27,062 bases of DNA from positions 1-27,062 of the IMG/VR virus record IMGVR_UViG_3300030107_005999, one strand, 5' to 3'. The notes below the pieces were generated by a model. The model saw only the letters and a list, made by a program, of their open reading frames with translations, was not told the origin of the DNA and did no database searches. The position numbers were made by a program, and so were the translations under genes. This document shows, piece by piece, positions 3,001-25,160 of this stretch; position 1 is the first letter of the stretch; each line of letters starts with the position of its first letter. The DNA comes from a virus.

Positions 3001-5935
3001 CTGCAATGTCAGACACATACGTCCCCTCGGCGTACTTTACGGGGCCATCTGACGGCTGGGCCAAGGCGCGGCCAGTCAAAGAGCCAGCCTCTCTCGCATG
3101 AACATCATCAAAGGCCTTATTGGCGGCACTAAGCTCGGCTTCTGCCTGGGAAACCCTCCGCTTGGCGGCTGTGCTCATCACGCGATGAGCCATTCCAGAT
3201 GCCTCCTCCGCAGCAATTAGCTCCTCCCGCGCTGCCTTGAGTTCTGACCTGGCGCTGTTGACCCTCGCACTGGCTTCAGCCGAGGTTGCGGGCCTGGCCC
3301 CCTCTTCCTTTATGGTCTTGTAAGCCTGCTCTCTGAGGCTGTGAAGAGTGGCCTCTTTGCTGCGCGGGGACTTCTTGTTCAACAAGACCTTCAAGTCTTT
3401 GTTGGCCTTTGACAGCATCCGCTTTATCTTTCGCTTCTTCGCCCTCGAGCCCTTCCCTTTGGTGCTCATGTACTCTGCCTGAAGACTCTGGATCCTTCTC
3501 TTCAACTTGGCGATCTTTGAACTAAGGACGGGGAACTCCTTGTTTCTGGCCATCACCTCGACAAGGTGATTGTTCTGCGAGACATATTGCGTTGTCTGAT
3601 CAACCGATCTTGCGGAGTTGTAGTAATCCGCAACCTCTGCCACCCGGGAATCAAGCCTCGTAGATGGCTTCATTTCTTCCGCAAGCGCCCTGCGGGCTGC
3701 GGCCTCTTGCCAGGACTTCTTGCTTCTTATCCACTTAGGAACAGGCTTCACTCCACCGATTAGAACTGTGGCAGCACCAAACGGGTCTTCCGCCACAATA
3801 ACCTTTGGGTCCGCAAGCAAGCCGTAGCCTATATTTGGCACTGCCCCTGCCATCTCCCCAGCGGTTCTTATGGCCATAGGCGTCTTTTCATAAGCATGCT
3901 TAGGCGTGGAGGTTGCATACAGCCCCTGAAAGGCAAGCTCGAGTGTGCCAACCATCGCATGCCAAAACCCCGGCCCGAAGCCGGAAATGCCCTCGGCGGT
4001 GGCCTCCAGCATTGTTTGGTCGGACTTGGATAGCCCCGTGATATCAAACATCATCGGGTCAAGCCCGTATCTCTTATAGGTCTTGAAGAACTCAATATCC
4101 CCCACGGGATGCTCTCCACGCCACCCCCCGCTGAGTTCACTGCCAGACAGGGCAAGCCCGCCTTCTATCCAGGTCTTAGATCTGAAAAGGGAAGGTATCG
4201 CCTGTCCGAGGAATCGGCCCATGTTCAGAAAGGTCAGGGGGCTCTTCTCCTGGGGGTCATACGACCTTGCCCCGTGACGCTTGTGGAGCGGGTCATCCGC
4301 GCTATACCCCTCAACCCCCCTTGCATAATCCGTAACCGTAGACCCAAGCCCGAGGAGGATGGAGTGCGGGCTGTATCGAACCATGATGTTGTTATGCCAC
4401 CGCTCCGCATCAGATAGGTTTCCCGCCAGCCGATACCCGTCAATCTCAACAGCCTCGACCATCTCGCCCCTGGCCGCACCACTAAACCAGTCCCACCACT
4501 CAAGAGGATTGCCAGACCCTTTCTTTGCGGCGTAGAACTCTGCGTCGTGCGGCGTGAGCTTCGCCTCATAGCTGCCGGGGAAAGAGAAACTCAGCCCCCA
4601 GGGGAGGTGCATGGTTCTCGGGGCCGTCACGCGGACAGTCTTTGCTTTGTGAAGGACCTCGCCCTTATCAACCGAGATGAGGATCGGGGACTCCTGTCGG
4701 GACCTGGCTCGCTTGAGAACCTGTAGCTGATCGTTCAGTCTACCTCTCAGGTCTTCCAGGTCTGTCCTCCCCGTGGCGCCCGGCGTCTCGCGGGTAAGTG
4801 TTGCTCCCTGACCAGTCTTTAAGGAGCGGAACGTGGTGACCCCATGCTCCACCTCCTCCTCGGAGAGGCCTGATGGTCGATATCCATCAACCGCAATATC
4901 TAGCGCATTCAGCTTCTCATCAACCTCCGCAATCTCCCTGTTGAGGCGCTGGATTCTTGCATCGTGAGTTTGGTGTTTATTCGGAACCAACTCCAGTCCC
5001 CGGGTCGGGTTGTAGACGAAATCCGTGTTTGGAGAAAGCTGGACCTCCGTCGTGGGGCGGGGGGCTTCAACCTTCTCCACCACCTCAACGGGGCCGTCTT
5101 CGGTCTGAACGGTCCTGGACCTAAAGGAATCTATGCTCGCAACCTCAGGGGAGATATCCTTCGACATCTTGAGTTGGTCTGGAATGTAGTGGTCCGGGAT
5201 TGCAACCCGGTGCTCGGGAACATCAGTCCCTGGCCATGTTCTTCCGGTTGGGACAAGTACTGCGGCTGCATGAGGTTTGTCCTCGCCCTGCCACTTGGCG
5301 CCAAAAGCCTTGGCGAGCCCCAGTTTGTACTCCGCGAGGAATTTGGACTGAAGGTCTCTCTTCTTCGTTCTGTACTCGTCCCATGGGAATGGCTTCCTCT
5401 GCTTGTGCATCAGGTCGAGTTTTTTCATCGCAGCCTTATGGCGCCTGAGAATCTTGTGCGGACTTACCCCGGCAGCGGCCCACCTCGGATCCGACATGAC
5501 CGACCTGAGAGTTACATCCTTCCCCGTCTGAGGCTCCATCCCAGGAGTCTCGGTCGTGACTCGGGGCTGGTACCAAGATGATCCCTTGAACTCCGGCTCC
5601 TTTGATGCCCACTGGGTCCCCTCGGGGCCTATGTCGTAATGGCCCGGTAGTTTTGATTCGGGATCGGGCAAGATGCCCGGAGTGACCCCTCCAGTGTCAG
5701 AAAGAAGATTGGCGGCGCGAGCAATGTCCTCTGTCCTTGCGAGCGGGAGACCCCTCTCAAACCTCTTGGTCTGGTGCTGAAGGGAAGGAGGAGCGTAGTC
5801 CCGATGAGGGCCGTGAGCAGCAGTGCCAAGCGCAGCAGCAGCCTCATCAATATCGGGAGAAGTTTTGCTGCCCAGGCCCTTCTTAAGGCTATCCAGCAAA
5901 TCAAATACACTCTGACCATATCTAGGCGTTGGCAC
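1..5935 (-). CDS. Giant virion protein, probably ejected/internal (3' end outside window)
   Basis: A single minus-strand frame runs without a stop from a GTG at 5935 to the window edge, giving at least 1978 codons; the stop lies outside. The GTG is chosen because GAGGA sits 6 bases upstream, and it overlaps the previous stop by 14 bases, as other junctions here do. The product is hydrophilic and rich in Lys, Arg and Ala, with no signal peptide seen. Residues about 800-945 are a long charged coiled-coil-like stretch (repeated KLKRRIQSLQ-, ARSELKAAREEL-like heptads). A DPLSITR motif occurs twice near residue 1080. Size, position at the end of the late cluster and lack of enzyme motifs fit the very large internal or DNA-ejection proteins of podovirus-type phages, or the 'large polyvalent protein' class. 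I recognise no catalytic domain. The gene is certain; the role is inferred. Confidence 0.85.
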   Translation of the reverse strand, partial: MPTPRYGQSVFDLLDSLKKGLGSKTSPDIDEAAAALGTAAHGPHRDYAPPSLQHQTKRFERGLPLARTEDIARAANLLSDTGGVTPGILPDPESKLPGHYDIGPEGTQWASKEPEFKGSSWYQPRVTTETPGMEPQTGKDVTLRSVMSDPRWAAAGVSPHKILRRHKAAMKKLDLMHKQRKPFPWDEYRTKKRDLQSKFLAEYKLGLAKAFGAKWQGEDKPHAAAVLVPTGRTWPGTDVPEHRVAIPDHYIPDQLKMSKDISPEVASIDSFRSRTVQTEDGPVEVVEKVEAPRPTTEVQLSPNTDFVYNPTRGLELVPNKHQTHDARIQRLNREIAEVDEKLNALDIAVDGYRPSGLSEEEVEHGVTTFRSLKTGQGATLTRETPGATGRTDLEDLRGRLNDQLQVLKRARSRQESPILISVDKGEVLHKAKTVRVTAPRTMHLPWGLSFSFPGSYEAKLTPHDAEFYAAKKGSGNPLEWWDWFSGAARGEMVEAVEIDGYRLAGNLSDAERWHNNIMVRYSPHSILLGLGSTVTDYARGVEGYSADDPLHKRHGARSYDPQEKSPLTFLNMGRFLGQAIPSLFRSKTWIEGGLALSGSELSGGWRGEHPVGDIEFFKTYKRYGLDPMMFDITGLSKSDQTMLEATAEGISGFGPGFWHAMVGTLELAFQGLYATSTPKHAYEKTPMAIRTAGEMAGAVPNIGYGLLADPKVIVAEDPFGAATVLIGGVKPVPKWIRSKKSWQEAAARRALAEEMKPSTRLDSRVAEVADYYNSARSVDQTTQYVSQNNHLVEVMARNKEFPVLSSKIAKLKRRIQSLQAEYMSTKGKGSRAKKRKIKRMLSKANKDLKVLLNKKSPRSKEATLHSLREQAYKTIKEEGARPATSAEASARVNSARSELKAAREELIAAEEASGMAHRVMSTAAKRRVSQAEAELSAANKAFDDVHAREAGSLTGRALAQPSDGPVKYAEGTYVSDIAEGPGTVRTWTKPKSDVKGEWVKKTGRGGRTYYEKVTPQLPAAPGTFRWGTEVRFSEPPTMQSGWVKRVNAAGRDVWVRESLRKDIEAWRFARDPLSITRQPMEGVSRVMFGGDPLSITRFLRNPPEPLLSLGKKWIENRWDAAAKQRGYLSYVDKIYTSLPEAIVSASKLYPMGSWIAPFEFSRLIYNRLVGQRSGMAWWKKFTRSPEKIIPAAIDGIAREHMNTRMNQWDLDAHAALQAIPDKTITYKGKTYNIRKRVGEALHTEAAQSSFTFKELNVFHQYEAAFIKTASKADRMQMLAVIDKLRTRLDNARNNRIDGYRWVEASKRGGRGQWEIDSDVGRFLKLMESKGNKHAKARLADLVERRDLLNKWAKPLSQQIADTVALGKKYGIIDNPSQALQWWMPESYKQNSKFVEWYKNKFSSEVPRTRSELRRLHKHIEQNADKLHSVRTGTGKSLGNELRQAGVPFETRVKKYGLIQNLNQEVFSGIRSLRQAVANAEYFNALAKMKGKQAPLPGAKVWEIAEPFVLDSLPAHWTKAQRSNWAQLPNTHLFERKVETRTRTDRPPKGELASWREIKGKDGKVRWEMDVTRKSKARKYHDASGLWIRKELLYDILLSEYIQEAARTWISGYVRHMKGNFTIRHPAVHLRNGAFNGVIFSVYADINPFNPRRWKLYEQMTRDTASQNKSLFFNIAFEEGVHNSNFARAEGLVQAQGKAMRGFFGSAKDLMDNTLELMLPMNANMKARLFGLGKATRWQAFKTLFEEIPGMLYTWGDASFKHTAGLRNLEKMGFYKIDPATKLPGLYNPATGRFIKDIKEFRKTEKGYQDKVRGAFRKGIEDFLNYLRQPMYATMLSTPTKIPWTNMKGEVGVMPGSRAFGFMSISQFPAFLSKAAPRMGKMFTETPMNTFRAGSLNTAIDSLTEAFADGLGITDGQMTSIMDVQERYNSLLSTVPLMASVDTDALKKALDQEEFEPSLEFGDDMIVHPPERIGLEFRQ

Positions 5936-23405: not shown

Positions 23406-23810
23406 ATGAAAACTAAAACTCAACAAGTATCTGTAGCTTTGGAAGAATCATGTCACGAATTGGTCCGCAGGACATCGGAAAAGACAAGACTAACAATCCA
23501 AACGCTAATCGATGTGGCCGTGGAATCATTCATTGGGTCTTTGGAAAACTACGGACTATCAGTGCCAGCAACCGATAGGAAGGCTCCAAAGGGGCAGGGC
23601 TATGAAAAGCGAGCGGTCATGAGCAAGTCACTGCACGTAAAGCTAAATGAGATCGGCGTCTTTCTCAATGTACCCGTCAGTGCCATGATCCGTGACGCAA
23701 TACTCGGGCAAAGATTCAACTTCCAAAGAATGCAACCAGTGAACGCAAGAGCAATGGGCTCGGTAAGACAAACACTTTTCAAAATCGAACAACAACCGCC
23801 AGCTACCTAA
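23406..23810 (+). CDS. Double ribbon-helix-helix DNA-binding regulator
   Basis: A 134-residue protein. ATG 23406 is the first start after an in-frame TGA at 23400; no Shine-Dalgarno is present, so the message may be leaderless. Residues ~5-47 read as a ribbon-helix-helix unit: strand QQVSVAL, helix EESCHELVRRTSEKTRL, then TIQTLIDVAVESFI. Residues ~68-102 repeat the plan: strand RAVMSKSL, helix HVKLNEIGVFLNV, then PVSAMIRDAILG. Two such units in one chain would make a single-chain pseudo-dimer. It lies against the 22-bp palindrome, so autoregulation and control of the divergent late cluster are likely. Confident in DNA binding, less in the exact role. Confidence 0.7.
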   Translation: MKTKTQQVSVALEESCHELVRRTSEKTRLTIQTLIDVAVESFIGSLENYGLSVPATDRKAPKGQGYEKRAVMSKSLHVKLNEIGVFLNVPVSAMIRDAILGQRFNFQRMQPVNARAMGSVRQTLFKIEQQPPAT

Positions 23811-23889
23811 TCACACACACACACCTCTCACGCGTACGCGCGTATGTATATACACGCGCATGACAAAGGGGGGTGTGTGTGTGTGATTA
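23808..23889. repeat. Cruciform with (CA)n/(GT)n arms and alternating purine-pyrimidine core
   Basis: Arms 23808-23825 and 23872-23889 are perfect 18-bp reverse complements made mostly of CA/TG repeats. The spacer holds a run of 33 strictly alternating purines and pyrimidines (23830-23862, rich in CG, TA and CA steps) with its own GCGCGT/ACGCGC hairpin. Such sequence is prone to left-handed (Z) DNA and cruciform extrusion under supercoiling. It starts inside the regulator's stop codon area and could act as a transcription barrier or supercoil sink. Confidence 0.8.
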
Positions 23890-23982
23890 AGTGTGATCCA
23901 AAAAACGTGCGATTTACTTTATGGGTACCTGCAAGCATATCGCGCGACCCCAATCAAAAATAAAATAGTACTCCCCCCATGT

Positions 23983-24000
23983 TTGGCACGATACTTGCTT
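23983..24000 (+). promoter_or_regulatory. Sigma-54 (-24/-12) promoter, first of three
   Basis: TTGGCACGATACTTGCTT matches the sigma-54 consensus TGGCACG-N4-TTGC exactly, with GG and GC separated by exactly 10 bases. The start site would be near 24010, right where the 9-base repeats begin. Sigma-54 promoters need an ATP-dependent activator, normally bound upstream; none is seen in the window, so a host activator would be used. Confidence 0.7.
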
Positions 24001-24117: not shown

Positions 24118-24135
24118 TTGGCACGATCATTGCTT
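24118..24135 (+). promoter_or_regulatory. Sigma-54 (-24/-12) promoter, second of three
   Basis: TTGGCACGATCATTGCTT matches TGGCACG-N4-TTGC with the exact 10-base GG-GC spacing. It differs from the first site only in the N4 spacer region. Predicted start near 24145. It lies 135 bases from the first site. Confidence 0.7.
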
Positions 24136-24170: not shown

Positions 24171-24188
24171 TTGGCACATTGTTTGCAT
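24171..24188 (+). promoter_or_regulatory. Sigma-54 (-24/-12) promoter, third of three
   Basis: TTGGCACATTGTTTGCAT keeps TGGCAC, TTGC and the exact 10-base GG-GC spacing; only the final G of the -24 element is changed. Predicted start near 24198. It lies 53 bases from the second site, same orientation, reading towards the structured RNA and the small genes. Confidence 0.65.
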
Positions 24189-24302: not shown

Positions 24303-24471
24303 TAAACGCTGCACTGCGGTACAATCGACATGGGAAATACGAATATGCTTGCAATCTATGTCTACAGGCCTCATTGTTGACCCCAGGTTCAGGGATGAAT
24401 CAGGCCCAACGGGGTTCGCTCCTAGTAAGTCACCTGCCCACATGATGTGGGAGGTTCTTTGACAAAGCGCA

Positions 24472-24642
24472 GTTTCAGTCAGTGTTGAGTGTTCAACCGG
24501 ACGCCACTAGGCCAACCAAGAACACTCGGCACAACCAAAGACGGTTCAAGCCGTTGGGAGTTATCAGGCATAACCACCGTTGGGAGTATCACGGGGCACA
24601 CTAACAAGACGTGCCGCTTGAATGCTCAACACTGACTGAAAC
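24472..24642 (+). ncRNA. Candidate structured RNA closed by a 25-bp stem
   Basis: Arms 24472-24496 and 24618-24642 pair along all 25 positions, 23 Watson-Crick and 2 G-U. The G-U pairs form only in plus-strand RNA; the minus-strand copy would have A-C mismatches. Inside the 121-base loop are further helices: CGGCAC/GTGCCG (24527-24532 with 24611-24616), GCC-ACTA-GGC (24503-24512), ACGG/CCGT (24541-24554), GTTAT/ATAAC (24560-24574) and CCGT/ACGG (24577-24594). Together these make a multibranched fold. CCGTTGGGAGT occurs twice (24551, 24577). It lies downstream of all three sigma-54-type promoters and has no sensible frame. Function is unknown; a regulatory RNA, a packaging-type RNA or a processing site are options. 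Confidence 0.6.
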
Positions 24643-24701
24643 ACATGAAAGGGAAGCAGGCATGCCATTGGGCAGCGCGGACCTAATGAGAGTTGATTCC
24701 G

Positions 24702-24743: not shown

Positions 24744-25160
24744 ATGGGACAACGTAGCAAAGCGATACGGAAACAGCGACGACGCAGCAAAGCACAACAG
24801 CGCGCCCGTCAATACTCCCGGCAAATGTCAAACATGCGGACTGATAACGAGCATACCGCAAACTTGACCACGCTGGACAGTGAACGACACAAGGGCTGTT
24901 CCTTACTGGAACAAGTTATCGAACTTTTCAAGTCTGTCAGTGTTCCATTCGCACACAACAACGGACGGTGTCCACGGTGGATTCAATCAAGAGTCCGCAA
25001 GGATGATTGGTCGTACAAACCTTGGAACAATCCGAACAAACGGCGCAAGCGTATCAAAACAACAACTCCACAAGCTAAACCAGTGCAACAGGGCAAGGTT
25101 GAAGAGCACTTGCTAGCACTGAACGACATGAAATCGAAGGTCATGTATATGACCGCATAA
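24744..25160 (+). CDS. Arginine-rich small protein, possible RNA-binding
   Basis: A 138-residue protein. I take ATG 24744, because GGTGA lies 5 bases upstream; in-frame GTG 24735 and TTG 24693 are alternatives. The N-terminus is an arginine-rich helix (GQRSKAIRKQRRRSKAQQR, continuing ARQYSRQM) like the RNA-binding arms of phage N-type antiterminators. A second basic cluster is near residues ~95-105 (NKRRKRIK). The middle contains LLEQVIELFKSVSVPF and a Trp-containing segment (RWIQSRVRKDDWSYKPW). It is the first gene after the structured RNA. RNA or DNA binding is likely from charge; antitermination is only a possibility. Family not recognised. Confidence 0.6.
   Translation: MGQRSKAIRKQRRRSKAQQRARQYSRQMSNMRTDNEHTANLTTLDSERHKGCSLLEQVIELFKSVSVPFAHNNGRCPRWIQSRVRKDDWSYKPWNNPNKRRKRIKTTTPQAKPVQQGKVEEHLLALNDMKSKVMYMTA

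Follow-up and report, generated by a model that had tools for sequence, protein, structure and literature searches.

A long and probably lineage-specific helix in the early-operon leader of a virus with sigma-54-type promoter-like sites

Organization of the early leader

The window, i.e., the whole 27,062-nt stretch of the virus record IMGVR_UViG_3300030107_005999 analyzed here, is probably a fragment. Its structural genes (terminase, portal, and major head) are oriented leftward and its rightward early genes begin at ~24.7 kb. Between these two sets lie an Arc-like gene, three sigma-54-type sites, a leader of ~550 nt, and the first early gene. The Arc-like protein gene (23406-23810) is named from a weak PHROGs match, and neither phage records nor genome contigs yielded a relative of its product. 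This protein and its counterparts in the relatives introduced below have a very conserved C-terminus (QRFNxQRxQPVNARSM) and mark this phage group well. Just past the Arc-like gene, we also observed a CA/GT-repeat hairpin with 26-bp arms (23804-23893), and similar repeats occupy the same place in the three close relatives.

These close relatives, L004, L005, and L008, were identified via the terminase, which is 98%, 91%, and 69% identical to that of the window, respectively. Searches for further relatives with the first gene, or with a part of the leader that is conserved, found these three contigs and no others.

All three sigma-54-type promoter-like sites are on the plus strand. The first (23984-23999, TGGCACGATACTTGCT) has 0 mismatches to TGGCACGNNNNTTGCW and is present in L004 too, the second (24119-24134, TGGCACGATCATTGCT) likewise has 0 mismatches, and the third (24172-24187, 1 mismatch), closest to the leader, resembles a site that precedes the leader in L005, L008, L016, L102, L089, and L091. 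None of 100 shuffles matched this count of three sites (starting at 23984, 24119, and 24172). In L016 (5440-6130, minus strand), L102, L089, and L091 as well, a leader of ~300–720 nt, apparently strongly structured in each case, separates a sigma-54-type site from a first gene that is small and basic. In the L012 clade, an apparent sigma-70-type promoter (TTGACA ... GATACT) and a short leader replace the sigma-54-type arrangement (L085:8330-8450, minus strand).

Within the window leader, the boxA-like sequence GTTCTTTGACAA (24454-24465, plus strand) is the sole perfect match to GYTCWTTGAMAA in the window (0.03 expected), and ends 6 nt upstream of the element that is the subject of this study. 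GYTCWTTGAMAA occurs exactly once per contig in the window, L004, L005, L008, and L091, each time in the leader, and this match count is partly circular because the pattern was derived from these same leaders. The position in L004, L005, and L008 is the same as in the window; the L091 copy is in the leader as well. Compared to the gamma-proteobacterial boxA consensus GYTCTTTAANA (PMC5725501), GTTCTTTGACAA has 1 mismatch and the sequences of L005, L008, and L091 have 2, and no convincing boxA-like sequence was found in the L016 or L089 leaders.

On the other side of the element, a small hairpin (TGCC-ATTG-GGCA, 24663-24674, plus strand) is a weak candidate for a boxB equivalent, based on sequence inspection and the leader alignment. 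Near the same place, L004 has GCCC-TAAC-GGGC, and L005 and L008 have GCCC-TGAC-GGGT. These 4-bp mini-hairpins, too short for significance, lie 19 nt past boxA in the three relatives and ~26 nt past it in the window if the insert is excluded. The element is thereby placed between the boxA-like sequence and the boxB-like hairpin.

The first early gene (24744-25160, plus strand) encodes an Arg-rich 138-aa protein with a pI of 11.0 and 9 Arg among its first 40 residues, of which L004 has an 84% identical counterpart and L005 and L008 have counterparts with 63–64% identity. In each of the eight leaders compared, the product of the first gene is basic (pI 10.1–12.0). For the Arg-rich protein of the window, no family or structure match was obtained, and none that would support an N homologue.

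A 25-bp closing stem with an inner part predicted to be bistable

The window element spans 171 nt (24472-24642). As the preliminary description had claimed, its arms (24472-24496 and 24618-24642, plus strand) are 121 nt apart and pair at 25 of 25 positions, the two non-Watson–Crick positions are G-U on the plus strand and A-C on the other, and the whole lies between the sigma-54-type sites and the first gene. The two G-U pairs are adjacent to each other. The 191-nt segment with the stem folds at −71.1 kcal/mol (z = −5.4; 0 of 200 shuffles as good), and the stem reaches 61 in a simple pairing score that peaks at 46 in the controls, namely 15 shuffled windows and unrelated viral contigs totaling 234 kb. 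The 25-bp stem is thus real and far above chance. A conserved protein frame running through the stem had been named beforehand as evidence that would count against an RNA: no plus-strand reading frame of at least 60 aa crosses the stem. The plus-strand ORFs that touch it are 40–48 aa long with GTG starts, and the sole longer ORF overlapping it (86 aa) is antisense and starts with TTG. A terminator was also considered and rejected, as no T-run follows the 3′ arm.

While all 25 pairs are possible, only the outer 10–15 bp are firmly closed in the predicted ensemble, a correction to the stem as originally described. The inner 10 bp have a probability of ~0.5, as 24520-24527 is an equally good partner for 24487-24494. 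With ~two turns (~22 bp) of near-continuous RNA duplex taken as the criterion for an RNase III substrate, the stem offers 25 possible pairs, of which the inner 10 are predicted to form about half the time. The competing structure is a local hairpin (24482-24494 with 24520-24532, plus strand; z = −4.5) that cannot coexist with the inner pairs of the closing stem. The energy model places the two inner-stem states within ~0.5 kcal/mol, with 24487-24494 predicted to divide ~1:1 between the distal arm and its local partner, and comparable competition arose in 1.5% of loop shuffles. The long stems of relatives described below are not predicted to be bistable. These predictions lend moderate support to a bistable inner stem being peculiar to the window element among the stems of this family.

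The interior (24497-24617, plus strand) has no significant fold of its own: for 24498-24616, z is −0.46 and 67 of 200 shuffles fold as well. The four additional helices of the preliminary description do fit there, yet are not significant, and the label “branched” is therefore unsupported. The interior also contains a near-repeat, CCGTTGGGAGTTATCA (24551-24566) and CCGTTGGGAGTATCA (24577-24591). Rfam searches at gathering and relaxed thresholds gave nothing of note and no family at the gathering threshold, in agreement with the initial impression that the RNA belongs to no recognized family, and a tRNA/tmRNA search returned none.

Presence and absence among close relatives

The leaders of L004, L005, and L008 align with that of the window up to both flanks of the element, but each lacks the element and has AATAC at that site. 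In the window, the element is preceded by GCGCA and followed by ACATG, compared to the empty site AAGGTAATACATG in L004. As L004, L005, and L008 stem from different metagenomes, it is unlikely that assembly dropped the hairpin in all of them, and the empty sites suggest that the element was probably gained in the window lineage. Being absent from these three relatives, the element is dispensable.

No target-site duplication was found at the flanks by comparison with the L004 empty site, and the window contains no second copy. Across phages, plasmids, IMG/VR, and GTDB genome contigs, no homologue was detected beyond chance. Other matches to the 18-nt arm in collections of viruses and prokaryotes were no more than chance occurrences, none with the second arm, and the loop motif CCGTTGGGAGTnATCA had 27 matches in IMG/VR, none with the rest of the element. 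No covariation is therefore available for the window element, and the earlier claim that its stem is “kept” by G-U pairs found no homologue in which such keeping could be seen; the stem’s own G-U evidence is a single adjacent pair of G-U.

Separately, we observed unrelated AT-rich inverted-repeat elements of 174–186 nt (AGTTATTTTTAGATGCTTTTTACAGGGGCATGGG...), MITE-like in appearance, at L138:41-226, L139:4583-4767, L141:11492-11674, and L161:21-206. Further copies occur in L166 and L181 near contig ends, as do most copies, and the four loci tested had no Rfam match.

Long helices in the early region of more distant relatives

We scanned the family contigs for stems spanning 130–300 nt. The top five elements were the window element, three elements of L016 (190, 185, and 287 nt), and one of L102 (173 nt), i.e., four long helices of 27–32 bp in two more distant relatives. 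All five stems are in the early leader or the early gene region, and all five pair better on the transcribed strand (126 Watson–Crick pairs, 20 G-U, 0 A-C, and 3 other), a count that is not a clean binomial test since the pairing score favors homogeneous stems, although the strand was not picked by gene direction.

The L016b and L102 elements are homologous. In this comparison of two sequences, their 28-bp closing helix shows 6 two-sided and 4 one-sided changes and 1 broken pair, and shifting the partners by 1–3 columns abolishes the compensatory signal. The homologous RNA at L016:4624-4810 and L102:1517-1689 (both minus strand) is 173–187 nt long, with a covarying closing helix of 28–32 bp and a T-loop-like GGG-TTnRAnT-CCC, and has no Rfam match; the covariation evidence is better for it than for the window element. 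A covariance model built from L016b and L102 matched neither the window element nor L016a, so that homology of the latter two with L016b/L102 is not established. A pattern search for the L016b/L102 stem was discarded, as it returned unrelated inverted repeats, for which the pattern itself selects.

Long stems also adjoin or enclose translation signals. In L016, a 32-bp helix (5203-5489, minus strand) surrounds a complete 66-aa basic gene including its ribosome-binding site. The end of the L102 element adjoins a ribosome-binding site, unlike in the window, where the first gene begins ~100 nt downstream of the element. In both L016 and L102, the same gene is preceded by a short hairpin whose outer stem is similar, and such long or short stem versions just before ribosome-binding sites are as expected of transcript cut points.

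Overall, the sequence comparison supports RNA-level selection for the homologous pair L016b/L102 and makes it probable for the class of long stems, and it extends to the window element by analogy only. The initial proposal of selection on RNA rather than DNA is hence strengthened indirectly, through the wobble pattern of the five stems and the compensatory changes of L016b/L102, and not by the window element itself.

A possible processing or insulating helix

These observations are best explained if the element is a long-helix module specific to this lineage and situated in the untranslated part of the early operon. By analogy with the lambda N leader or the rRNA leader–trailer helix, its most likely role would be to process or insulate the transcript within an early leader of antitermination-like type, a reading that we favor tentatively and with slightly less than even confidence. 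Specifically, a transcript would start at a sigma-54-type promoter and pass a boxA-like signal, the long duplex would then form, and the gene for the Arg-rich protein, a putative antiterminator, would follow. The duplex may be a substrate of host RNase III, whose cleavage would part the leader from the message and free the interior, and/or it may fold the insert away and keep boxA close to downstream signals, the stem holding boxA and the boxB-like hairpin near each other across the insert. Exchange between the inner stem and the local hairpin could delay or tune this cleavage or folding step.

A leader acting in cis, for processing or antitermination, accounts better for both the boxA-like sequence and the relatives’ long helices next to ribosome-binding sites than does the free-standing, branched non-coding RNA first envisaged, whose interior has no significant fold. 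For the same element to be a trans-acting small RNA, the stem would stabilize or release a ~120-nt interior acting on a host or phage target. Its 171 nt are a typical size, and L016b and L102 conserve parts of their interior, including the T-loop-like motif; however, the window interior is also without a homologue, and neither an own promoter nor a terminator was found at the element ends, so that we consider this role unlikely. We regard as distinctly unlikely a cis-acting bistable switch, in which 24487-24494 would control translation or read-through without cleavage by swapping its local and distal partners: the closeness in energy of the two states, seldom equaled in loop shuffles, points toward it, but it rests on energy-model prediction, the relatives’ long stems are not bistable, and there is no homologue to compare. 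Finally, a DNA-level element, i.e., MITE-like terminal inverted repeats or a recombination or replication hairpin, has in its favor the inverted termini and the exact presence/absence among close relatives, but is very unlikely, since the lack of a target-site duplication, the single copy, and the chance-only arm matches argue against a MITE, no parent with the same ends was found, and the wobble asymmetry is toward the transcribed strand in all five family stems.

Beyond the processing or insulating helix proposed for the window, it is conceivable, if doubtful, that this phage lineage carries exchangeable 170–290-nt long-helix RNA modules that would cut and insulate the early transcript in a pre-rRNA-like manner, be gained and lost both in the sigma-54-driven leader and between early genes, and in some cases (L016b/L102) have interiors that are conserved RNAs in their own right. 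If true, sigma-54-type promoters, a boxA resembling that of rRNA, and long processing helices would occur together in the early leader of one uncultured phage group, which to our knowledge has not been described for any phage. The compensatory changes of L016b/L102 provide a ready-made testable structured RNA, and because the empty sites suggest module gain by single lineages, function could be tested by simple removal.

Comparison with known systems

The large ornate RNAs GOLLD and ROOL (PMC12286853) are, like the window element, phage-linked structured non-coding RNAs to which no role has been assigned. The window element differs in being much smaller, without an ornate interior, and without an Rfam 15 match. 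A second comparison is with the RNase III sites of the phage T7 early transcript, which are single hairpins at gene boundaries. Long duplexes at the gene boundaries of a polycistronic early transcript are a shared feature, clearest in L016 and L102, whereas the helices of this family enclose ~110–220 nt, and in L016 a whole gene.

In lambda, ~200 bp separate nutL from N downstream, and the sequence between them is highly structured; the description of this stretch refers to studies of RNase III and of N repression (PMC5725501). The window leader presents the same succession of promoter, boxA-like site, large structured stretch, and first early gene for an Arg-rich protein. However, it has sigma-54-type sites where lambda has sigma-70, its stem follows boxA but precedes the boxB-like hairpin instead of lying past boxB, its boxB and N equivalents are putative, and its element is found in one lineage only. 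In rRNA, RNase III cleaves the leader–trailer helices (27 bp for 23S), and boxA is present in the same transcripts (PMC10250234). There too, a boxA-like sequence directly precedes a comparably long helix that encloses the RNA downstream, although the window stem encloses 121 nt without a significant fold and not an rRNA. The likeness of the window leader to the lambda N and rRNA leaders is one of arrangement, not of sequence.
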